Source of the DNA: Bacteroidia bacterium
GTDB lineage: Bacteria > Bacteroidota > Bacteroidia > Chitinophagales > UBA2359
Direction: 5' to 3'
DNA: 60,283 nucleotides
NCBI GenBank assembly: GCA_030427245.1
Contig: JAUHXA010000046.1
Coordinates: 1-60,283, forward strand
The notes under the pieces are model-generated. The model ran no database searches. It was not told the origin of the DNA and saw nothing but the letters and a program-made list of their open reading frames with translations. Each line of letters begins with the position of its first letter. The stretch's first letter is position 1. This document shows positions 33,328-49,107 of this stretch, piece by piece. The position numbers were made by a program, and so were the translations under genes.

Positions 33328-35160
33328 ATGACAACGACAGCTACACAAGCTCAAACACAAGCCCCCACTTCAACAGATAGCCAAAAAAGACTGAATCGCT
33401 TACTTCAATTAGCCGAATGGCACGCATCTATTCAGCCTGAAAAAGCCATTGCACAGGCAGAAGAAGCAATGAAAATAGCTGCGCAACAGGCAGATAAATC
33501 GGCAGAATGTAAACTCACCTATATATTAGGCAGCACTTATTTGCATCAAGGACGCTTGGAAATAGCCACTGAATACTTCAATCAGGCCTTACAGCTTTGT
33601 AGACAACACTGCGATACCGCAACTTTGGTAAAGGTTTTTAATGCCATAGGTAATATTCACAAGCTCAAAGGCAACTACAAATTGGCATTGGAATATTTCT
33701 TCAAAGGCTTAAAATACGATGTCAAATCCTTCAATGCGACTCTATACAACAACATTGCTCACGCCTATGCCATTCTCAAAAAATACGACAAAGCTGTTGA
33801 CTACCTTCAAAAAGGGATGAGTCTCGCCCAATGTCAAAATGAACCTGAACCCCTCATCAGATGCTTGATCAACATTGGCAGCAATTACTACCTACAAGGA
33901 AAATATAAAAAAGCCATCGAACACTTCAATCAAGCACTGGAGACCGCAATCCAATATCCCAATTTCACCAAGCAAAGTGTGAAATGTTTGCATGATATTG
34001 GAGCTGCACATGAATACTTAGGAAATCACGATTTGGCTTTGGAGAACTATCGAAAAGCACTGGAAATCAGCCGAAAATGTGGCTATTTTTTGGATGCTTG
34101 CTGCAATATTTACAAAATCGGAAACATCCGCTTAAAGCAAAAAAACTACGTCAAGGCATTGAAGTATTTTTACAAATGCCTGGAAATGATTGACGAATAT
34201 TCATTTGAGTCACAGCGAATTGATTGCTTGAAAGCAATGTACGAGTGTTATGAGCTGCAAGAGGATTATGCCAAAGCCAACCATTTTTTGAAGGCAGTCA
34301 TAAAAGCACAAGACCAACAACGGAATCACCGTATGGAATGTGAAATGGCGGCTTTATTGATTGACAAAGAAGAAGAGGTCGCTCTTTTGGAGGAAAAACG
34401 AAAGAAGATGGAAATCCAAAACAAAACTCTTTCAAGTTCTTACAAAATACTGGAACAAACCAACAAAGAGTTGCAACAATATGCCTATGTGGTAGCACAT
34501 GACCTCAAAGAACCTCTCCGAAACATTGGTAGTTTTACGGCTTTACTTCAAAAAAGATATGGGACGGATTTGGATTCGACTGCTTTAGAGTTTATGCAGT
34601 ACATCTTGAAGAATACCAAACACATGAATCAATTGTTGTCGGATTTGTTGAAGTATGCAACTGTGAACAAAGATGTGCAGAGATTGATTATTGAAGAAGT
34701 TAAAACCCAATCGGTTGTCGAAGAAGTTCAGCGAATTTTGGCTTCTCGCATCCGCACGACACAGGCGGTTATTGAAGTAGGTGCACTGCCAATTGTGTAC
34801 TGCAATCGCTTACATTTGACCCAATTATTGATGAATCTCATCAACAATGCCATCAAATTTCGCAGTGATCGCCCTTGTCATGTCCGAGTACGAGCCAAAA
34901 CAAAAGATGATTGTTATATTTTTTCGATTGAAGACAATGGCATCGGAATTGAAGAAGATTACCAACAGCAAATCTTCAAGATTTTCAATCAATTGGAAAG
35001 ACACAATCACACAGGTACGGGCATCGGTTTGGCGATTTGTGACAAAATTATCAAATTCTATAGTGGCGAAATTTGGGTCAATTCCGACAAAGATAAAGGC
35101 TCGACTTTCTATTTTTCACTGCCTCGATTTCCAAAAATCAAGCATCAAATAATGCCTTGA
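33328..35160 (+). CDS. Cytoplasmic TPR histidine kinase
   Basis: The 610-residue protein has no signal peptide or membrane helix. Residues 25-325 hold about seven TPR units (CLINIGSNYYLQGKYKKAIEHF, CLHDIGAAHEYLGNHDLALENY). A coiled coil (about 345-380, EEEVALLEEKRKKMEIQNKTL) leads into a HisKA domain with phospho-acceptor H391 in YVVAHDLKEPLRNI. HATPase_c (about 440-605) has N box NLINNAIKF, G1 EDNGIGI and G2 GTGIGLAI. Such soluble TPR kinases take input from protein partners. No response regulator is adjacent, so it is an orphan. The start ATG 33328 is followed by a Thr/Gln-rich lead of about 20 residues. Confidence 0.92.
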   Translation: MTTTATQAQTQAPTSTDSQKRLNRLLQLAEWHASIQPEKAIAQAEEAMKIAAQQADKSAECKLTYILGSTYLHQGRLEIATEYFNQALQLCRQHCDTATLVKVFNAIGNIHKLKGNYKLALEYFFKGLKYDVKSFNATLYNNIAHAYAILKKYDKAVDYLQKGMSLAQCQNEPEPLIRCLINIGSNYYLQGKYKKAIEHFNQALETAIQYPNFTKQSVKCLHDIGAAHEYLGNHDLALENYRKALEISRKCGYFLDACCNIYKIGNIRLKQKNYVKALKYFYKCLEMIDEYSFESQRIDCLKAMYECYELQEDYAKANHFLKAVIKAQDQQRNHRMECEMAALLIDKEEEVALLEEKRKKMEIQNKTLSSSYKILEQTNKELQQYAYVVAHDLKEPLRNIGSFTALLQKRYGTDLDSTALEFMQYILKNTKHMNQLLSDLLKYATVNKDVQRLIIEEVKTQSVVEEVQRILASRIRTTQAVIEVGALPIVYCNRLHLTQLLMNLINNAIKFRSDRPCHVRVRAKTKDDCYIFSIEDNGIGIEEDYQQQIFKIFNQLERHNHTGTGIGLAICDKIIKFYSGEIWVNSDKDKGSTFYFSLPRFPKIKHQIMP

Positions 35161-40231: not shown

Positions 40232-40269
40232 CTAAAACCATGAAAATTGAATTTTTTAAAGGGAAAATC

Positions 40270-41865
40270 ATGTTCACATACATCATCATAGGAGCAGGTT
40301 CGGCAGGTTGTGTCTTAGCCAATCGCCTATCTGCTAATCCACACAACAAAGTTTTGTTATTGGAAGCGGGTAAAGCCGACACTTCACCCGACATATTGTT
40401 ACCTTCGAGCTATTCCAAACTCTTCAAATCCGAATTGGATTGGGCTTTTGAAACCACGCCCCAAACACATGTAGATAACCGAAAGCTGTTTGTGCCAAGA
40501 GGAAAAGTTTTGGGCGGATCCAGCAGCATCAATGCCATGATTTATATGCGAGGCAACCGATTGGACTACGACGAATGGGAGAAAATGGGTGCTAAAGGTT
40601 GGGACTACGAATCGGTATTGCCTTACTTCAAAAAATCCGAGAATCAAGAAAATGGCGGCAACGATTTTCATGGAACATCCGGACCGCTATCGGTCTGTAA
40701 TCTTCGCTCTCCCTTCAAAATTTCCAAAACATTTGTGCAAGCGGCAAAAGAACTTGGTTTTGCACACAATCTTGACTTCAATGGCCAATCGCAGGAAGGT
40801 TTTGGATTGTTTCAGGTTACACAGAAAAACGGAGAACGTCATAGTGCTTCGGCGGCTTATTTGCAGCCTATCGCTCACCGTTCCAATTTGGAAATTATCA
40901 CGGAAGCTCATGTCCACAAAATTTTGATAGAAAATGTTCAACGAGAGGGATTCAGAGCAGTCGGGGTGCAATACGAAAAGGCGGGGCAAATCCATAGGGC
41001 AAAAGCTTCATCGGAGGTGATTCTGTCGGCGGGAGCCATCGCCAGCCCTCAAATACTGATGCTTTCGGGGATTGGGCATCAACGGCATTTGTATGACAAA
41101 GGGATTGTTTGTATCAAGCACTTACCAGGCGTTGGGCAAAACTTACAAGACCATTTGCTGGTGCCGATTGTGGTAGAGTTGAAGGGAATGTACCGAACTT
41201 TTGACAGTGCGGGAACTTGGCTCGACCACCGACAATACGAGCATTTCGGCTCAGGGCCTTTGAGTAGCAATACTTCGGAAGCGGGAGGGTTTCTAAAAAC
41301 TCGTCCTGAGTTGGACGCACCCGATCTGCAGTTTCATTTCAGTCCAGCCTTTTACTATCAGCACAGCTTTGCCCGTCCAAAAGGAAAGGGCTGCACGCTT
41401 GCGCCCACTTTATTACAGCCCAAAAGTGTGGGAGAAATCACCTTAGATACGCCAAATCCGACAGACGCTCCTCTGATAGATCCTCGATATTTGAGTCATG
41501 AAGAAGATTTGAAGACCATGATTGAAGGAGTGAAAGTAGCCTATCGTTTACTCAAAACTCGTCCTTTTCAGCGCTATTTCAAAGACTATCATTTGCCCAA
41601 TTCCATGCTGCAAACGGACGAAGAAATAGCTCAACACATTCGAGCCTATATGAAAACAGTTTATCATTCGTGTGGAACTTGCAAAATGGGAAACGATACG
41701 ATGTCGGTGGTCAATCCGCAATTGCAGGTGCATGGTATTCGAAATTTGAGGGTCGTTGACGCTTCGGTAATGCCCAAAGTACCGAGAGGAAACACCAATG
41801 CTCCTGCAATTATGGTCGGAGAAAAAGGAGCAGATTTAATTTCTTTTGGGTATAACAATGCCTAA
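40270..41865 (+). CDS. GMC-family FAD-dependent oxidoreductase (choline dehydrogenase-like)
   Basis: The 531-residue flavoenzyme starts best at ATG 40270 (MFTYIIIGAGSAGCVLANRL), which puts the FAD-binding GxGxxG at the very N-terminus as in relatives; ATG 40240 adds ten unrelated residues. GMC motifs include FVPRGKVLGGSSSINAMIYMRG, ILSAGAIASPQILMLSGIG, active-site His in YHSCGTCKMG and the closing NTNAPAIMVGEKGADLI. The family oxidises alcohols such as choline. No betaine aldehyde dehydrogenase gene is nearby, so the substrate is open. Confidence 0.93.
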   Translation: MFTYIIIGAGSAGCVLANRLSANPHNKVLLLEAGKADTSPDILLPSSYSKLFKSELDWAFETTPQTHVDNRKLFVPRGKVLGGSSSINAMIYMRGNRLDYDEWEKMGAKGWDYESVLPYFKKSENQENGGNDFHGTSGPLSVCNLRSPFKISKTFVQAAKELGFAHNLDFNGQSQEGFGLFQVTQKNGERHSASAAYLQPIAHRSNLEIITEAHVHKILIENVQREGFRAVGVQYEKAGQIHRAKASSEVILSAGAIASPQILMLSGIGHQRHLYDKGIVCIKHLPGVGQNLQDHLLVPIVVELKGMYRTFDSAGTWLDHRQYEHFGSGPLSSNTSEAGGFLKTRPELDAPDLQFHFSPAFYYQHSFARPKGKGCTLAPTLLQPKSVGEITLDTPNPTDAPLIDPRYLSHEEDLKTMIEGVKVAYRLLKTRPFQRYFKDYHLPNSMLQTDEEIAQHIRAYMKTVYHSCGTCKMGNDTMSVVNPQLQVHGIRNLRVVDASVMPKVPRGNTNAPAIMVGEKGADLISFGYNNA

Positions 41866-41941
41866 TAAACTGTTTGTGTTTAAATAAAAAAACTATGTTC
41901 TGTGTTGAAAACAACGAAAATAGATGCAGTTTTATGGACTG

Positions 41942-42021
41942 CTAATATTACATAACATTTGAAATATTAGTTGGTTGTTGAAATAAAAACTTGACTATCT
42001 AAAATATTAATAGTATATTGC
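41942..42021 (+). promoter_or_regulatory. Promoter and candidate operator of the GG-leader peptide gene
   Basis: TTG (41991-41993) and TATATTG (42014-42020) are exactly 20 bp apart, a good Bacteroidota promoter, about 45 bp before the ATG. Twenty base pairs upstream of the -33 box, CTAATATT (41942-41949) and AATATTAG (41963-41970) form a perfect inverted repeat that could bind a regulator. Confidence 0.55.
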
Positions 42022-42065
42022 AGCTACCATTAAGTTTTTTAATAACCATAAAATTTTTAAACCAG

Positions 42066-42194
42066 ATGAAAACACAGAACAATGTTTCACTTGAAGATTT
42101 GAAAAACTTGGCACTTACCAGCCAAGAAATTACGCAAATTAAAGGCGGAGAAAGAGGTAATGCCGTAATCATTGTAGATTGGGGTGAAAACTGA
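42066..42194 (+). CDS. Double-glycine leader peptide (candidate secreted peptide or RiPP precursor)
   Basis: This 42-residue gene lies in a 412-bp gap. Residues 1-28 look like a double-glycine leader: a helical acidic stretch (VSLEDLKNLALTSQEI) ending TQIKGG at 23-28, close to the pattern L-S-x-x-E-L-x-x-I-x-G-G cleaved by C39 peptidase exporters. The predicted 14-residue core is ERGNAVIIVDWGEN. It has its own promoter, upstream inverted repeat and intrinsic terminator, which argues for a real unit. Similar GG-Bacteroidales natural-product precursors are known as a class. No C39 exporter, modifying enzyme or immunity gene is visible within the window, so export and function are open. The core has no Cys and only one aromatic residue. 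Confidence 0.7.
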   Translation: MKTQNNVSLEDLKNLALTSQEITQIKGGERGNAVIIVDWGEN

Positions 42195-42241
42195 TAACTC
42201 GTCCTTTATCGCCATATTATTTGGCTTGAATTAATTAGCAG

Positions 42242-42279
42242 TAGCCTTCAAATTTATCACTTGAAGGCTATTGTTTTTT
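42242..42279 (+). terminator. Intrinsic terminator after the GG-leader peptide
   Basis: TAGCCTTCAA (42242-42251) and TTGAAGGCTA (42261-42270) are perfect 10-bp arms followed by TTGTTTTTT, at the convergent end with the Ig-like anti-sigma gene (stop at 42278). Confidence 0.88.
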
Positions 42280-42913
42280 AAAAAGTAGGAGGCATTAAGT
42301 TTTTCTGTATGAAAAAAGAGCGTAAGACCATTCCATATTTTTTAGAACGCAATTTCCAATAATAGCGCCCAGGTTTGAACCCTTTTAGGTCAATTGTGAA
42401 GGTAGCAGTATTGGCTGCAATATTTTGCTTCAAAACCTCATCTTCTTCACTATTTTCGATGGTCAACTTCAATGCCTCGTTTACAGGATTTTCCAATTGA
42501 AAAGTAATTTGCTCCAAAAAATCCGCTTCATTTTCAGGTTGAATGACCTTCAAGTTGCCCATACTTCGAATTCCGACCAACTCCTTAGCAATTCGACTTT
42601 CATACGCACCAACAGGCTGAAACATAGCCAATAATTCGTCTAAGGTATAGGTTTCGGATGCTTCCTCTTCCGATTCTTCTTCAAAATCACTTCTACCCAG
42701 TTTGTATTTTTGCTCCCAAGAAGCGACTTTGGCTTCAAAATCAAAAGCCCCGACAGCTACAATTCCTTCAATAAGAAAATGATAATCAGCTACTTCCTGA
42801 GCCAATACTGGATTCTGTTCTATGTCTGTTTTCATGGCGGTCATTTCATTTGGAGGCAACTCGCCTCGCAGATATTTTTGGATACGGTCTATATGTTGTT
42901 CTTGTGGTGTCAT
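42278..42913 (-). CDS. Anti-sigma-like protein with C-terminal Ig-like domain
   Basis: The 211-residue protein follows the ECF sigma gene by 52 bp. Its N-terminus (IQKYLRGELPPNEMTAMKTDIEQNP, then VLAQEVADYHFLI) has the pattern of anti-sigma heads and tetratricopeptide-like regulatory starts. A linker is very acidic (FEEESEEEASETY). The last 100 residues form a beta-rich domain ending in GFKPGRYYWKL and RSFFIQKN, the same domain as in the 16161 protein. No membrane helix is seen. I infer that it binds the ECF sigma factor encoded upstream; the Ig-like domain may contact a signal protein. Not a named family to my knowledge. Confidence 0.6.
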   Translation of the reverse strand: MTPQEQHIDRIQKYLRGELPPNEMTAMKTDIEQNPVLAQEVADYHFLIEGIVAVGAFDFEAKVASWEQKYKLGRSDFEEESEEEASETYTLDELLAMFQPVGAYESRIAKELVGIRSMGNLKVIQPENEADFLEQITFQLENPVNEALKLTIENSEEDEVLKQNIAANTATFTIDLKGFKPGRYYWKLRSKKYGMVLRSFFIQKNLMPPTF

Positions 42914-42965
42914 ATTCTATGCTAATTTTGAAGGGTCAATTTAGAATGTTGAATGATTGTTTTTG

Positions 42966-43529
42966 CTATTTTTTCATCAATTCCCTCAACTGCTTCAAGC
43001 AAACACTTTTGCGTTTGCTGACCACTCTTTCGTCTTTGTAACCCATCGTTATGGCAATCGCTTCAACAGAGTAGTTTTTGAAGAAAAAGAGGTGCAAGAC
43101 GGTTTTACAGGGTTCGCCAATGCGCTGCAAAAGCCTTGCAACAACCTTTTTTTGATGCTCTTTTTTGTAAGTTTCATCAATGTCATAGTCCACTTCTTGA
43201 ATGGCAGCCCCTTGTTCAATATCGCTTGTTTTATTGTGTTTGTCTCGAAATCGTTCTCTGAACACATTTTTGGCGATGGCAAACAAATAGGTTTTCAAGC
43301 TGCTTTTCAATTCTGTAATTTTACCGTCTTTGATATTGTAATACAAGATGATAAATGCTCGCTGATACACCTCTGCCGAAGTATCGTCCGCACAATTGTA
43401 GCGCCGACCAGCCCAAATAATGAACTCACTTCGGTACTGAGCATACAGCCTTTCAAGCAATTGTTCGTCACCTTTTTGGATGTCCTCCAGCAATTTGGTT
43501 TTATTTGAATAACTGTTTTCCATTTTCAT
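42966..43529 (-). CDS. ECF-type RNA polymerase sigma factor
   Basis: The 187-residue protein has region 2 (about 25-95: DDTSAEVYQRAFIILYYNI, LKTYLFAIAKNVFRERFRDK) and region 4 (about 130-180: IGEPCKTVLHLFFFKNYSVEAIAITMGYKDERVVSKRKSVCLKQL). Starts at 43529 (MKMENS) or 43523 (MENS) are equally possible. It is divergent from the CHAT-STAND gene and upstream of the Ig-like anti-sigma-like gene. In Saprospiria-type genomes I recall sigma genes of this kind beside CHAT-protein genes, so a functional link is plausible. The gap to the CHAT gene (43530-43743) contains a clear promoter for the latter. Confidence 0.9.
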   Translation of the reverse strand: MKMENSYSNKTKLLEDIQKGDEQLLERLYAQYRSEFIIWAGRRYNCADDTSAEVYQRAFIILYYNIKDGKITELKSSLKTYLFAIAKNVFRERFRDKHNKTSDIEQGAAIQEVDYDIDETYKKEHQKKVVARLLQRIGEPCKTVLHLFFFKNYSVEAIAITMGYKDERVVSKRKSVCLKQLRELMKK

Positions 43530-43623
43530 TCATTCAATTAATGTAGCGTTTGGTAGGAATGTTACCGCTACGAATATAAGAAAATTAGCGATAATCAGAG
43601 TTAAAACTGAACGAAGAGAAGAA

Positions 43624-43654
43624 TTGTTGATTTAGGTAAATTTGGTTAGATTTG
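43624..43654 (+). promoter_or_regulatory. Promoter of the CHAT-STAND gene
   Basis: TTG (43624-43626), 20 bp, then TAGATTTG (43647-43654), a full match to TAnnTTTG. The ATG at 43744 lies 89 bp further on. Between them three tandem TTGCAC units (43706-43725) occur. Confidence 0.65.
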
Positions 43655-43743
43655 TAACCTATGCTTATTGAAGTCCTTCAATAAGAAGAAATGCGTAACT
43701 TGAATTTTGCACTTGCACTTGCACTTGCATTTGAATTTCTCCC

Positions 43744-46700
43744 ATGTCAAAACCCCTCATATTCCTCGCCTTTGCAGATTACCGCACGACTGACGACCAT
43801 CTCCGAGAATTGGGCGCAGAACAAGACGGTATTGTGTCGGCATTGCAGAGAGCAAAAGCGGCGGGTTTGTGCGACATCATCACTTTAGCAGATGCTACGG
43901 TCAGCAAAATTCAAGCAGTTTTCAACGAAAGTCAGCAATCCATTTCCATCTTTCACTTTGCAGGACATGCAAGTGGTTATGAATTGTTATTGAAAGAAGA
44001 AAACATTCATGCAGAAGCTTTTGCGAGATTTTTGGGGCGACAGTCGGGGCTGCAATTGGTGTTTTTGAATGGCTGTTCCACACAACGACAAGTCAAAGCA
44101 TTGCAGGAAAACGGTGTGCCTTTGGTGATAGCAACGGCTCGCTCGATTGAGGATGGAATAGCTTGTGAATTTGCCACTTATTTTTACCAACAACTGGGCG
44201 CAGGCAAGAGCATTGCAGAAGCGTATCAACAATATGAGTACGGTCACGAAATCAAAAACACTTCCCTTCGGCGTTTGTACAGTTCCAAAACACCCGCACT
44301 TGCGATAGACCGTTTTCCGTGGGAACTGTATGTAAAAGATGGGGCAGACGCTGCAAAAGCTTGGAATTTACCCGAAGTCGTTGGAAATCCACTGTTTTCG
44401 CTTCCTTCAATCCCGCAAAACTACGACTTACCGAGCCAGCCCTTTCGCTATTTGCATTGGTTTGAGCGCAAACACGCAGAGGTGTTTTTTGGTCGAGCCT
44501 ATCCGATTCGAGAACTGTATGAACGGGTAAATGACCCTTTGGGTGCGCCCATTATTTTGCTTTACGGCAAGTCGGGAGTCGGCAAATCTTCACTGCTTCA
44601 TGCGGGGCTTTTTCCGAGATTGGAAAAGAAAATAAGCCTTCAATATTTGCGTCGCCAAAAGGAAAAAGGTTTGAAGGAAACTCTGCAAGCGAGCTTGGAA
44701 ATGGAAGAAGATAGTTTGAGTTGGAGTAAACTTTGGAATTCAAAAGAAAAGAACAACCAATCTTTGCTTATCATACTCGACCAAGTAGAAGAAAGTTTTA
44801 CCCAACCTTTGAAGAACAAAGCAATAGGAGAGGAGTGGGAGAATTTTTTAGCAGTGCTTCAAGAATTATTTGCGAATCCAAGTGAGCGACCGAATGGAAA
44901 ATTGATATTGAGTTTCAGGAAAGAATATCTGTCCGAAATCGAAGAAATGTTGGAAGAAAAAGGGCTGCCACGTGCCAAGTTGTTTTTGCAGCCCCTTCAA
45001 AAAAAAGACATTCTACAAGCTATCATCGGTATCACCCAAAACGAGCGCACCCAAAAACACTATCAACTTCAAATAGAGGAGGGGCTGCCCGAAATCATTG
45101 CAGACGACCTACTCGAAGACCATGATTCTGCCATTGCTCCTGTCCTCCAAATATTACTCACCAAACTTTGGGAGGCTGCTATTGAAGTCGACGAAGCGCA
45201 GCCCAAATTCACGATTGCAGCCTATCAACAATTGAAGAAAGAGGGCATTTTATTGTCCGATTTTTTGCAACAGCAATTGTTGGCGATGGAAAAATTGCAG
45301 CCCAAAGCGAGTGAATCGGGTTTGGTTTTGGCATTACTAACCTATCATACTACGCCACTCGGAACGGCTGCTAAACGTACTCTGGAGGATTTGCAAGCAA
45401 GTTTTGGAGAGAATGGAAATAATTTGGATTTGAAGAATTTATTGACCCAACTTCAAAACCATTATTTGTTGGTCGCCACCAAAAATGATGAATTTAGCTT
45501 GGCACACGATACACTTGCGCCTTTGGTGAGAGAGCGTTTTGACAGCTCCAACAAACCCGCTCAACAGGCTGCAAGGATATTGAAAAACAAACAATTGGAG
45601 CAGCAGTATAGCCGTCAAAAGGTTTTTTTGAATGAGTCTGAATTGCAGATTGTGGAGGAAGGAAAGGTCGGTTTGGGAAAACTGGACAAAACGACTGAAC
45701 GGTTATTGAAGGAAAGTCGAGCCGAAATTGAAAGATTGAAGAAGGAGAATGTTTGGGTAGATAGGATTGCGAAAGTAGGAGGTACTTTGTTGATTTTGTC
45801 ATTGGTGGCAGTGGTTTGGTTTTGGAATTCAAATAGTGAGAGTCAAAAGATTGCGGAAGCGAATGAATGGTTGAGGAAGGCTGCTGCGGAGGCAAATTCT
45901 GACCCTACGGAGAGTTTTTTTCATGCTGTCAATGCGTGGCAGATTTACCCGTCTGGGAAAGCTTTGGGCTATGCTAATAATGCGGTATATGGACATGCCT
46001 ACGAAGATTCGGTATCGGGCAAATTTTACAGCACACCTTTTTACCGAAACTTGAATGTGGTGGGTGATTATGTGACGGCTGCGAATTTTTCGGCGGATGG
46101 ACAATGGATTGTGATGGCTACGGGGTCAGGCATGGCAAAACTGTTTAACTTGAAAGGAGAACAGTTTGTGTGGCGAGAGGGGAAATTGCTGCAAATCGTG
46201 GAGGATTACAGCGAAAGAGGTGGGTTGGTTTTGATGGTGAAGGGTGAAGATGGAAAATTGAAGATGGAGAATTTTGGAGGGGATTCAAAAAAGTACAGAG
46301 CGTTTTTTCCACATTATCAAGAGACTAAGCCGATTACCAAAGTTGCGTTTTCAAAAGATAATTCTTTGCTTTGGATGCAGTTAGAAGACAGCACTGCTTT
46401 TGTCTGGAGTTTGCAGGAAGGTAAAGGAGAGATACTGAAAGGTGAATCTTCTGCAATTAATGAAATGTTTGGAGGTGCGGAAAGTTCCAATAAAGCAACT
46501 TATATAGGAGAAAACCAACTGCAAATTTTTCCCAAACCCCAACTGTATATGGAGCATCCGACTAAGCCTTATGTACTGACTTTGGGTGGAGGAAATGCAC
46601 TTTTGTGGAATTTGAAAACGATGGAAATACCTCTATTGACTTCTGATAATGAAGATTTTGATTTAATTGACTCTTTGTTCTTCAAGACCAACAAAGTACA

Positions 46701-46989
46701 ACATTTTTTACGCCATCAAAAGCTTTCATTGAAAGATGATTCTTACCGAGTCAATTTTTTGGGCTTTCGTCCGAGTGAGGTGACGATAGCTTTGGAGGAT
46801 GATATTGAGGCAGTTGTTCACCGCTTCCGTAACCCAGATGGACAAGATTTTGCAGGTGCTTGTTTGGTCAATGAAAATCGCCAAATTGCAGCAATGTCAA
46901 AAGATAGTACAGTTCGATTATGGACAATTGACCCCGAATTGTTGGCGGATAGTGTGGGAAGGGCTTTGCATTTGGAAGAAGAAAGATAA
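43744..46989 (+). CDS. CHAT caspase-like protease / STAND ATPase / WD40-like protein
   Basis: The 1081-residue protein begins with a CHAT domain (1-165): catalytic His75 in HFAGHAS and Cys111 in FLNGCST, the caspase-fold dyad. A STAND NTPase of the nSTAND1 type follows (about 245-560): FFGRAYPIRELYE, Walker A GKSGVGKSS at 275-283 and Walker B LLIILDQVEES. A coiled region leads to one membrane helix (about 676-695). The C-terminal 380 residues have degenerate WD40-like strands (AANFSADGQWIVMATGSGMAKLFNL, AAMSKDSTVRLWTID). STAND proteins with effector domains act as intracellular alarm switches, and CHAT proteases can cut partner proteins in abortive infection. I infer a surveillance or cell-death protein, held at a membrane. 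It is divergent from an ECF sigma gene and converges, with a 1-bp gap, on the Septu-like pair. The target is unknown. Confidence 0.9.
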   Translation: MSKPLIFLAFADYRTTDDHLRELGAEQDGIVSALQRAKAAGLCDIITLADATVSKIQAVFNESQQSISIFHFAGHASGYELLLKEENIHAEAFARFLGRQSGLQLVFLNGCSTQRQVKALQENGVPLVIATARSIEDGIACEFATYFYQQLGAGKSIAEAYQQYEYGHEIKNTSLRRLYSSKTPALAIDRFPWELYVKDGADAAKAWNLPEVVGNPLFSLPSIPQNYDLPSQPFRYLHWFERKHAEVFFGRAYPIRELYERVNDPLGAPIILLYGKSGVGKSSLLHAGLFPRLEKKISLQYLRRQKEKGLKETLQASLEMEEDSLSWSKLWNSKEKNNQSLLIILDQVEESFTQPLKNKAIGEEWENFLAVLQELFANPSERPNGKLILSFRKEYLSEIEEMLEEKGLPRAKLFLQPLQKKDILQAIIGITQNERTQKHYQLQIEEGLPEIIADDLLEDHDSAIAPVLQILLTKLWEAAIEVDEAQPKFTIAAYQQLKKEGILLSDFLQQQLLAMEKLQPKASESGLVLALLTYHTTPLGTAAKRTLEDLQASFGENGNNLDLKNLLTQLQNHYLLVATKNDEFSLAHDTLAPLVRERFDSSNKPAQQAARILKNKQLEQQYSRQKVFLNESELQIVEEGKVGLGKLDKTTERLLKESRAEIERLKKENVWVDRIAKVGGTLLILSLVAVVWFWNSNSESQKIAEANEWLRKAAAEANSDPTESFFHAVNAWQIYPSGKALGYANNAVYGHAYEDSVSGKFYSTPFYRNLNVVGDYVTAANFSADGQWIVMATGSGMAKLFNLKGEQFVWREGKLLQIVEDYSERGGLVLMVKGEDGKLKMENFGGDSKKYRAFFPHYQETKPITKVAFSKDNSLLWMQLEDSTAFVWSLQEGKGEILKGESSAINEMFGGAESSNKATYIGENQLQIFPKPQLYMEHPTKPYVLTLGGGNALLWNLKTMEIPLLTSDNEDFDLIDSLFFKTNKVQHFLRHQKLSLKDDSYRVNFLGFRPSEVTIALEDDIEAVVHRFRNPDGQDFAGACLVNENRQIAAMSKDSTVRLWTIDPELLADSVGRALHLEEER

Positions 46990-46990
46990 A

Positions 46991-47842
46991 TTACCAAGTC
47001 AATGCTTCTGGAATATCTTCAAATAATTGCCAAAGTTCGGGGATTCGTTGCTGCATGGCTTGGGGAAAATTCTTGTATTGTCTTTTCATTTCTGCCCATA
47101 CTGTAGGGTGGGCTTCTTTTTGTATGCCTACCTTTATTTTTTGAAGTTCGGTATTATTTGCACCTACAAGTTTTCGAGTTCGATAACGGCTCAATCTGCT
47201 CAAATAATTATCAAAAGCAATTTCTCGAGCTTCTACCAGATATTCTCTTTCATTCAATCTCAAAATATCTTTGAGAGTATATTCTGCTCTTCTTTTGTCT
47301 TTTGCATTCAAAGTAGGAAGCTCAGAAAATCGAAAAGTGGCAGGATTGCCCATAATATCTAAAAATAGAAATTCTAAAGGGTTTTCAACTCTGGGATTGA
47401 TTAAGACTGAATTGCCTGGAATTGGTTCAATAGGAATGTATCCTCTTGTTCTTGGAGGAGTGATGTCTTCAAAGGCATCATTATCGGTTCTGAAAATGGC
47501 AAATTTGTTGTTTTTCGGACCATTACAAGGACCACAAGCATAGAGGTAGTTTTCCCACTCAAAAGCTTTATCTGGATAGATGTTTTTGGGGTGAATGTGT
47601 TCGACTTCATCCGCTACCGAATCCTCACAATAAGAGCAACGTCTTGCACCTACACACATATCCGTTAGCATTTTTTTTACTTCGTCAAAAGTGGCATTGC
47701 CCTTTTTGTTTCTCAAATTCCAAAGTCGTTTTGCTTCCTCTACTTTTTCTGGAAAAGTGGTTTTGGCATCGATTTCTCCTTGCCAAGTATCGAGTTCGGT
47801 TTGAGCAGTTGTAATGATGTTTGTATGAGGGATTTGAATCAT
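46991..47842 (-). CDS. HNH endonuclease, Septu PtuB-like
   Basis: The 283-residue protein has a zinc-ribbon HNH core: CSYC at about 72-75, EHIHPKNIYPDKAFEWEN, then CGPCNGPKNNKF. The order C-x-x-C, E-H-x-x-P-K, C-x-x-C-N matches the TIGR02646/PtuB group that pairs with AAA ATPases. Its ATG overlaps the stop of the ATPase gene by 4 bp, so translation is coupled. Septu systems (PtuA ATPase plus PtuB HNH) block phages, by nucleic-acid cleavage as far as is known. It lies beside the CHAT-STAND gene in a likely defence island. Family call by motif; activity untested. Confidence 0.85.
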   Translation of the reverse strand: MIQIPHTNIITTAQTELDTWQGEIDAKTTFPEKVEEAKRLWNLRNKKGNATFDEVKKMLTDMCVGARRCSYCEDSVADEVEHIHPKNIYPDKAFEWENYLYACGPCNGPKNNKFAIFRTDNDAFEDITPPRTRGYIPIEPIPGNSVLINPRVENPLEFLFLDIMGNPATFRFSELPTLNAKDKRRAEYTLKDILRLNEREYLVEAREIAFDNYLSRLSRYRTRKLVGANNTELQKIKVGIQKEAHPTVWAEMKRQYKNFPQAMQQRIPELWQLFEDIPEALTW

Positions 47843-49107
47843 TGTCCTGTGGGTAAAATTTCTTTGAGATTTTGTAGTTCTTCTTCTTCTGAAGGGGCAA
47901 TGATTCCCATAATAGATTTGGTATTCAGTTGCGCCATTCTATTGAATTTTTCTTGCGAAGATTTAGAACGGCTTACATTCTCACCAAATGCCTCCGTACT
48001 AAAAGCATCCAATACATTGCCAAATACCAATCTTTGTTTTTCCAATCCTGTGATTTCGCCCGAAGCTTGGTTACTTCCTGGTGCTGCCAATCGCCAAATA
48101 GTGCCATTTTCGGCAGCTTGACAAATCAAAGGGCTGTGAGTTGTTACTATGAATTGAATTTTTGGAAAATACTTAGTCAGCCATTTACCTATTTTTACCT
48201 GCCATGTTGGGTGAAGGTGGGCATCTATTTCGTCAATTAAAACAACTCCAGGAAGGTCAACATACATTTGTCTCTCAGCAGTCTTTTTAAATACATTCTC
48301 TACTCCATAGGTTTCTCGCAAACGGTAAATTAAATCAAGTGTTAAGGACAATATAGAGCGATAGCCATCTCCCAACTCTGTAACAGAAATAATTTTATTG
48401 TTTCCATCTTTGACGAATATTCCATCGGGCGTGATAGGTTGAAGTATAGAATTATATGGTAATAATTCTCCTGTATTAATGAATTGAATAATATTGTTTA
48501 ATGTTTTTCTTGCAGAATGATTACCCATTGATTGTCGATAATTCAAGTCATGAAGCCATGCCAAGGAACTTCCCAAAGCAATACCTTCTTCAAAAATTGA
48601 GATGTGTGAGGCTACTCTTGGATAAGAAGAAAGACTTTCTAATTCTGTAGCATTGCCTATAAAGCGTCTTATAGCTCCATAGCCTACCGAAAACCATCCA
48701 TGTCTATTGCTCCAAAAGGAGTTGTCAGCATCTATGATAGTTTGTAAAGAAATATTATTGACATTGCTTTGTAGAGGTCTATTTCTTTTTTGTTTATTGA
48801 GGGTAATTTTTGCAGAAACAGTTGAAAAACTAGTAGGATTGACAAACGAATCCAAATTTTCATCTTTTATCACTTCAATTGTTAGAGTACCTTTATTTGT
48901 ATCTTTTCTTAACCATTCATTCCACTGTGGTCTCAAGGCAGCAGCGCTATTTGAGCCAATTAATAATAAAGCAATAGAACGTATTATTGTTGATTTTCCT
49001 GCTCCATTGTCTCCAATAATAACATGCCAACCTGCATAATTAGAGAAGTTAATAGATATTTTTTCAATAGCACGAATATTAGATATATTTACGCTCTGTA
49101 TATACAT
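47839..49107 (-). CDS. AAA ATPase, Septu PtuA-like
   Basis: The 422-residue ATPase has a RecF/SMC-type head: Walker A GDNGAGKST (about 34-42), a signature-like segment TELGDGYRSILSLTLDLIYR, Walker B VVLIDEIDAHLHPTWQ and H-loop FIVTTHSPLI. The ELGDGYRS form is common in ATPases paired with TIGR02646 HNH nucleases. There is no fused Toprim or nuclease domain. It overlaps the HNH gene by 4 bp in an ATGA-type arrangement. It is distinct from the ATPase at 12079, whose partner is a PD-(D/E)XK protein. Inferred role: sensor and ATP-driven gate of the nuclease. Confidence 0.85.
   Translation of the reverse strand: MYIQSVNISNIRAIEKISINFSNYAGWHVIIGDNGAGKSTIIRSIALLLIGSNSAAALRPQWNEWLRKDTNKGTLTIEVIKDENLDSFVNPTSFSTVSAKITLNKQKRNRPLQSNVNNISLQTIIDADNSFWSNRHGWFSVGYGAIRRFIGNATELESLSSYPRVASHISIFEEGIALGSSLAWLHDLNYRQSMGNHSARKTLNNIIQFINTGELLPYNSILQPITPDGIFVKDGNNKIISVTELGDGYRSILSLTLDLIYRLRETYGVENVFKKTAERQMYVDLPGVVLIDEIDAHLHPTWQVKIGKWLTKYFPKIQFIVTTHSPLICQAAENGTIWRLAAPGSNQASGEITGLEKQRLVFGNVLDAFSTEAFGENVSRSKSSQEKFNRMAQLNTKSIMGIIAPSEEEELQNLKEILPTGQ

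Follow-up and report, generated by a model that had tools for sequence, protein, structure and literature searches.

A probable stand-alone double-glycine precursor in a Bacteroidia genome with candidate exporters on other contigs

We report that a 42-codon open reading frame (ORF) in a 60,283-nucleotide stretch of DNA from a Bacteroidia bacterium (the window) is probably an ordinary stand-alone double-glycine (GG) precursor with its exporter elsewhere, which would add a member to a kind of gene that is already known. The reading that we favour, with modest confidence and from the sequence, is that an unlinked C39 exporter secretes its unmodified 14-residue core, which would more likely be a signal than a bacteriocin. 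In this model, the peptide would be encoded by a single-gene transcription unit, and its 28-amino-acid leader would bind the C39 peptidase domain of one of three unlinked transporters, most likely the PCAT on contig C180 or C83 with its HlyD partner. The precursor would be cut after Gly-Gly and the core, exported without modification, would act outside the cell as a secreted peptide, a signal rather than a membrane-active bacteriocin. If real, it is one more stand-alone GG peptide from a phylum in which genes of this sort readily escape notice and in which a precursor can be encoded apart from its exporter.

The ORF (42066-42194, +) is present as originally predicted: it runs from ATG to TGA and encodes a 42-amino-acid precursor, MKTQNNVSLEDLKNLALTSQEITQIKGG followed by ERGNAVIIVDWGEN. 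Its codon usage scores 0.34 bits per codon in frame over the composition of intergenic DNA, placing it at the 60th percentile among 340 stretches of equal length from the 26 long ORFs of the window, and none of 5,000 random stop-free sequences scored as high. The other five frames score at most 0.095 bits per codon, and an antisense ORF (41999-42172, −) was rejected on codon usage, the minus-strand frames falling within the same bound. These results suggest that the ORF is probably a real gene. It is followed by an intrinsic terminator hairpin with a U-tract (42237-42275, +), which the original prediction had also described. The 15-pair stem folds at −20.9 kcal/mol, compared with a mean of −6.6 kcal/mol for shuffled sequences (z −6.8), and 0 of 200 shuffles were as stable. 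The hairpin is absent from a terminator scan that allowed loops of 3-8 bases, probably because its own loop has 9. Terminator hairpins also lie 3′ of the GG genes at C12 and C118 and of the precursor in genome G333 described below. Upstream, a promoter with −33/−7 elements and 20-bp spacing had been proposed; a TTG-N20-TATATTG site does exist (41991..42020, +), but shuffling the 200-bp upstream region 3,000 times yields a similar pattern in 31% of cases, and upstream of the ORF there is no strict TAnnTTTG box. The proposed 8-bp inverted repeat, CTAATATT/AATATTAG (41942..41970; arms 41942-41949 and 41963-41970), is likewise present, but its like is found in 32% of shuffled upstream regions. Because each is matched in about one-third of shuffles, we rejected both as evidence.

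The leader (42066..42149, +) comprises 28 amino acids, ends in Gly-Gly and carries Leu at −12, Glu at −8 and Ile at −7 and −4, with positions numbered as in PMC6363468 and PMC7018657. It passes the double-glycine test, having the GG end and hydrophobic residues at −4, −7 and −12; residue −15 is Asn, which is not hydrophobic. As described in PMC6363468, leaders that are hydrophobic at −4, −7 and −12 and have Glu at −8 are bound by LahT150 and ComA, and the window leader fits what C39 domains bind. Among 11 leaders compared, all three positions are hydrophobic in those of the window peptide, C12, C118, G333 and C160, and two of the three in those of C83, C122, C180, G009 and two from G003. Scored with a matrix of 20 positions derived from 24 other leaders, a set that is not fully independent because G009 is also among the weak hits of the window peptide and the G003:C733 row lies in a cluster brought in by the window-peptide search, the window leader comes first among the 22 Met..GG candidates of the window, with a lead of 13 bits over the next one. 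With the same matrix, 6 of 200 simulated windows held a leader as good or better.

Assignment to the GG-Bacteroidales class of precursors, which the original prediction named as a known class, holds only loosely. No Pfam or NCBIfam model matched the window peptide at E<=10; these include the class model TIGR04149 (cut-off 25 bits), which nevertheless hits the nearest outside relative and, at E<=1e-3, has matches in 9 of 248 genomes searched from the order. With the window peptide as query, 3 of 396 genomes of the order, its own included, gave a match at E<=0.05 (E per one genome); the two outside matches have E 0.0039 and 0.033, each for one genome, with 396 searched. The better of these is a 40-amino-acid GG precursor, MKNVHVISLKDLKQNQLSREEMKALKGG followed by SGGDVVTIVWPS, in G333, a genome of another family. 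It scores 36.5 bits against the 25-bit cut-off of TIGR04149, and among the ORFs read by eye in the surrounding 12.2 kb we saw no exporter or maturase. The same match recurs in Saprospiraceae bacterium MAG-132 (JAHDCK010000007.1), apparently on the same contig. The second match is a 51-amino-acid precursor in G003, a genome of the window genome's own family, within a grasp-with-spasm cluster with a PCAT; it matches the window leader at 42% over residues 5-41. That contig (C733; L036) holds three ATP-grasp-like genes, three SPASM-like genes, four GG precursors and a PCAT in 16.8 kb, of which one protein of each of the two maturase types was tested with a model and the others and the PCAT were recognized by eye.

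A whole-genome search with a profile of eight other leaders recovers the window peptide at E 1.5e-5, with up to four of the eight rows brought in by the window peptide or adjoining such a row; the other four hits at E<=10 are rows of the model itself. Profiles of other rows fail to recover it (genome-scale E 92 for two rows and 640 for four), and it is not among the four best hits listed for a 23-row profile. Because some rows are tied to the window peptide and the other profiles fail, the similarity is suggestive of common descent with other GG precursors, not proof of it. At E<=1e-3, a profile of three rows, the window peptide among them, had matches in 6 of the 396 order genomes, the peptide's own included and three of the six only at 2.7e-4 to 7.6e-4; at E<=1e-4, it matched just 1 of 395 class genomes, namely the peptide's own. 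Neither the order nor the class genome searches yielded a close homologue.

The original prediction had placed the exporter elsewhere in the genome and proposed a genome-wide search for C39 exporters. That search found three C39-peptidase ABC transporters, on contigs C83, C160 and C180 and none in the window's contig, and the genome also holds other GG precursors. An HlyD-type gene adjoins each transporter; the one on C83 lies in a grasp-with-spasm cluster, and the one on C160 is also accompanied by a second ABC protein. Gln, Cys, His and Asp are invariant in all three, and these correspond to the C39 catalytic residues (PMC6363468). No exporter or receptor gene adjoins the window peptide itself. 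A PCAT that exports a peptide encoded elsewhere is known in pneumococcus, where ComAB contributes to the export of BriC (PMC7595303).

The predicted core, ERGNAVIIVDWGEN (42150..42191, +), has 14 residues, a net charge of −2 and a computed monoisotopic mass of 1570.77 when unmodified. It is short, acidic and free of cysteine, and we prefer a signal over a bacteriocin for these reasons. Graspetide links join a Ser, Thr or Lys donor to Asp or Glu. None of the 14 residues is Ser, Thr, Lys or Cys, so that graspetide or lanthipeptide chemistry on this core is unlikely, as judged from its sequence. The ester or amide links of graspetides are made by ATP-grasp ligases (PMC8939145). An unmodified secreted 14-mer is the simplest reading of the core, and a carbon–carbon bond made by a radical-SAM enzyme is possible. 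We rejected a conserved core motif, V-x-[IL]-[IV]-W, as only 2 of 13 cores reached p < 0.05 against shuffles (0.026 and 0.047), both from relatives picked by whole-peptide similarity. Genome matches to the ATP-grasp and SPASM maturases of grasp-with-spasm systems lie on C122 and C83, and none lies on the window's contig. At C122 (L043:8149-10711) there is a complete second grasp-with-spasm set consisting of a GG precursor (MKKNQDALQ...VKGG) with a strong hairpin 3′ of it, an ATP-grasp protein, a small protein that, judged by eye, may contain an LPL-like motif, and a SPASM protein. For the SPASM maturase of C83 (L020:10169-11398), the match to model positions 1-90 falls in a separate stretch that is interrupted by five stops.

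Could the core be modified in trans instead? The window peptide might be an orphan RiPP precursor served by the grasp-with-spasm maturases of C122 or C83 and exported by the C83 PCAT. Both maturase families are present in its own genome, its second-best outside relative sits inside a grasp-with-spasm cluster, and its core shares AVxIxD with that of the G003 relative, at a p of 0.026 against shuffled cores that is uncorrected for 13 comparisons and for the choice of G003 by similarity. Precursors encoded far from the enzyme have moreover been suggested for another ATP-grasp branch, branch 2 (PMC8939145). Against this, the core offers no Ser, Thr or Lys donor and no Cys, each maturase set already owns a GG precursor and the SPASM gene of C83 seems frame-broken. 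Given the missing donor and the precursors that both sets already have, we consider modification in trans unlikely.

We assign a similarly small probability to the ORF being a decaying remnant of a former GG-peptide cluster, intact as a reading frame but with its expression or export lost. In favour of decay, matches among the 19 genomes of the same family are all weak (best E 0.033), the ORF lacks linked genes of the kind and the core is very short; against it, the codon usage is gene-like, the strong terminator is intact and a relative of the same size and layout exists in another family (G333). Still less probable, and in our judgement very unlikely, is an ORF that arose by chance and happens to look like a leader. 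Gene-like codon usage, a terminator and the leader pattern all occur together here, and both non-self matches at E<=0.05 across 396 genomes are GG precursors that align at Gly-Gly; what speaks for chance is that profiles built of other rows miss the peptide and that 6 of 200 simulated windows matched its leader score. A stand-alone precursor served by an unlinked exporter is the reading that we retain.

The genes around the ORF had been described as a sigma/CHAT/Septu island to which the peptide might be tied. On one side it adjoins a GMC oxidoreductase gene (40240-41865, +). On the other lies a convergent gene (42278-42913, −) named anti-sigma-like from its place beside a sigma gene, whose product has DUF3244 as its sole Pfam match, below cut-off. 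This gene and an ECF-sigma-like gene form a pair (42278-43529) divergent from that of a CHAT-nSTAND1 protein with weak WD40 matches (43744-46989), after which come Septu-type PtuB (HNH) and PtuA (ATPase) genes (46991-49107). The Septu call is borne out by model, with best PADLOC E-values of 4e-102 for PtuB and 1e-140 for PtuA. The suggested tie of the peptide to the sigma/CHAT locus was not supported. The anti-sigma-like protein has 17 matches in its own genome and occurs in 19 of 99 genomes searched, its own included, and beside 43 other copies (16 others from the same genome and 27 from relatives, each with some 1.5-2 kb of flanking DNA unless the contig ended sooner) we found no convincing GG leader. 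When 46 stretches (the 16 other own copies and 30 loci, one of which is the window and two of which repeat own copies) were searched with a leader profile in their ORF segments of 20-149 codons, the window peptide came up together with three further hits (E 4.2 to 6.9). Scanning these stretches for the leader pattern added one unconvincing 31-amino-acid ORF (L083). As no GG peptide accompanies the other copies, the neighbourhood of the window peptide is most likely incidental. We also rejected a mobile or phage origin of the locus: plasmids gave no DNA match for 40240-49107 and no protein match, phages gave no protein match, and 0 of 148 candidate stretches in viral contigs were confirmed.

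Elsewhere in the genome, GG peptides lie beside histidine kinases with TPR domains. At C12 (L034:9105-11550), a GG peptide is encoded directly upstream of a TPR-HisKA kinase on the same strand, and at C118 (L035:48-2065) a GG peptide and such a kinase are convergent. At C173 (~196.8-200.5 kb; L140:16794-20000 and L141:1-513), found in an 800,000-base sample of the genome, there are six tandem GG peptides, arranged as three alternating pairs and each carrying YPPPF in its core; the protein encoded downstream on the same strand, called a kinase by profile match, scores 575 bits to a TPR-histidine-kinase profile. The window has its own TPR-histidine kinase (33328-35160), 7 kb to the left of the peptide and with no GG peptide within 1 kb. 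It is related to the C12 and C118 kinases, the C12 kinase sharing 30% identity with either of the other two. By a crude hydropathy test, the C12, C173 and L133 kinases have a transmembrane-like segment in the middle, with their TPR part lying N-terminal of it, whereas the C118 and window kinases have none; L133, which shares the layout of C12, lacks a GG peptide.

Over two samples and the three loci that seeded the kinase model, a GG peptide lay within 1 kb of 3 of 6 kinases scoring >350 bits, two of these three being themselves seeds (C12 and C118, with the window kinase as the negative seed), and of 0 of 11 scoring between 100 and 350 bits. A pre-set test on the second sample (792,649 bases) yielded one further kinase >350 bits (L186) with no GG peptide near it. 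The GG criterion used sees two of the six C173 peptides and so misses some GG peptides; in both samples it listed 13 other ORFs, away from these kinases and most of them unlike leaders by eye. That the window peptide is one ligand of a signalling network, in which shared PCATs export GG peptides and TPR-histidine kinases sense them, is an idea that we consider quite improbable. If true, the network would be a Gram-negative counterpart of ComC/ComD. The wider pairing of GG peptides with TPR-histidine kinases would amount to a peptide-signalling system of Bacteroidota that is open to test. Among the papers searched, none joined double-glycine peptides, TPR-histidine kinases and Bacteroidota, and those listed by a looser search were mostly on streptococci or on quorum sensing in general.

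Among known systems, the TIGR04149 (GG_sam_targ_CFB) precursors of Bacteroidota resemble the window leader in length and style (LxxLK..., [IL]KGG). The G333 relative exceeds the cut-off of that family, whereas the window peptide goes unmatched at E<=10 and has no radical SAM gene beside it in the ORF list. The precursors of grasp-with-spasm systems (TIGR04192/TIGR04193), which by our own reading of PMC8939145 may correspond to its ATP-grasp branch 5, include the G003 precursor that the window leader resembles; the window peptide differs in having no adjoining maturase that we could see and no donor residue in its core. Literature searches on grasp-with-spasm and on Saprospir- RiPP precursor peptides found nothing. 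Bacteroidetocins also come from Bacteroidota, with a GG leader and an exporter that has a double-glycine peptidase domain (PMC6671954). As described there, however, their leaders have 15-16 amino acids rather than 28, their mature peptides (42 amino acids in the first two studied) contain at least two cysteines whereas the window core has none, and their genes are linked to transporter and membrane-protein genes, whereas the window's contig has no C39 match. Finally, although the pneumococcal GG peptides such as BriC are Gram-positive and the export and signalling role of the window peptide are predictions, the two are alike in being GG peptides with an exporter encoded elsewhere and in the −4/−7/−12 pattern of their leaders.
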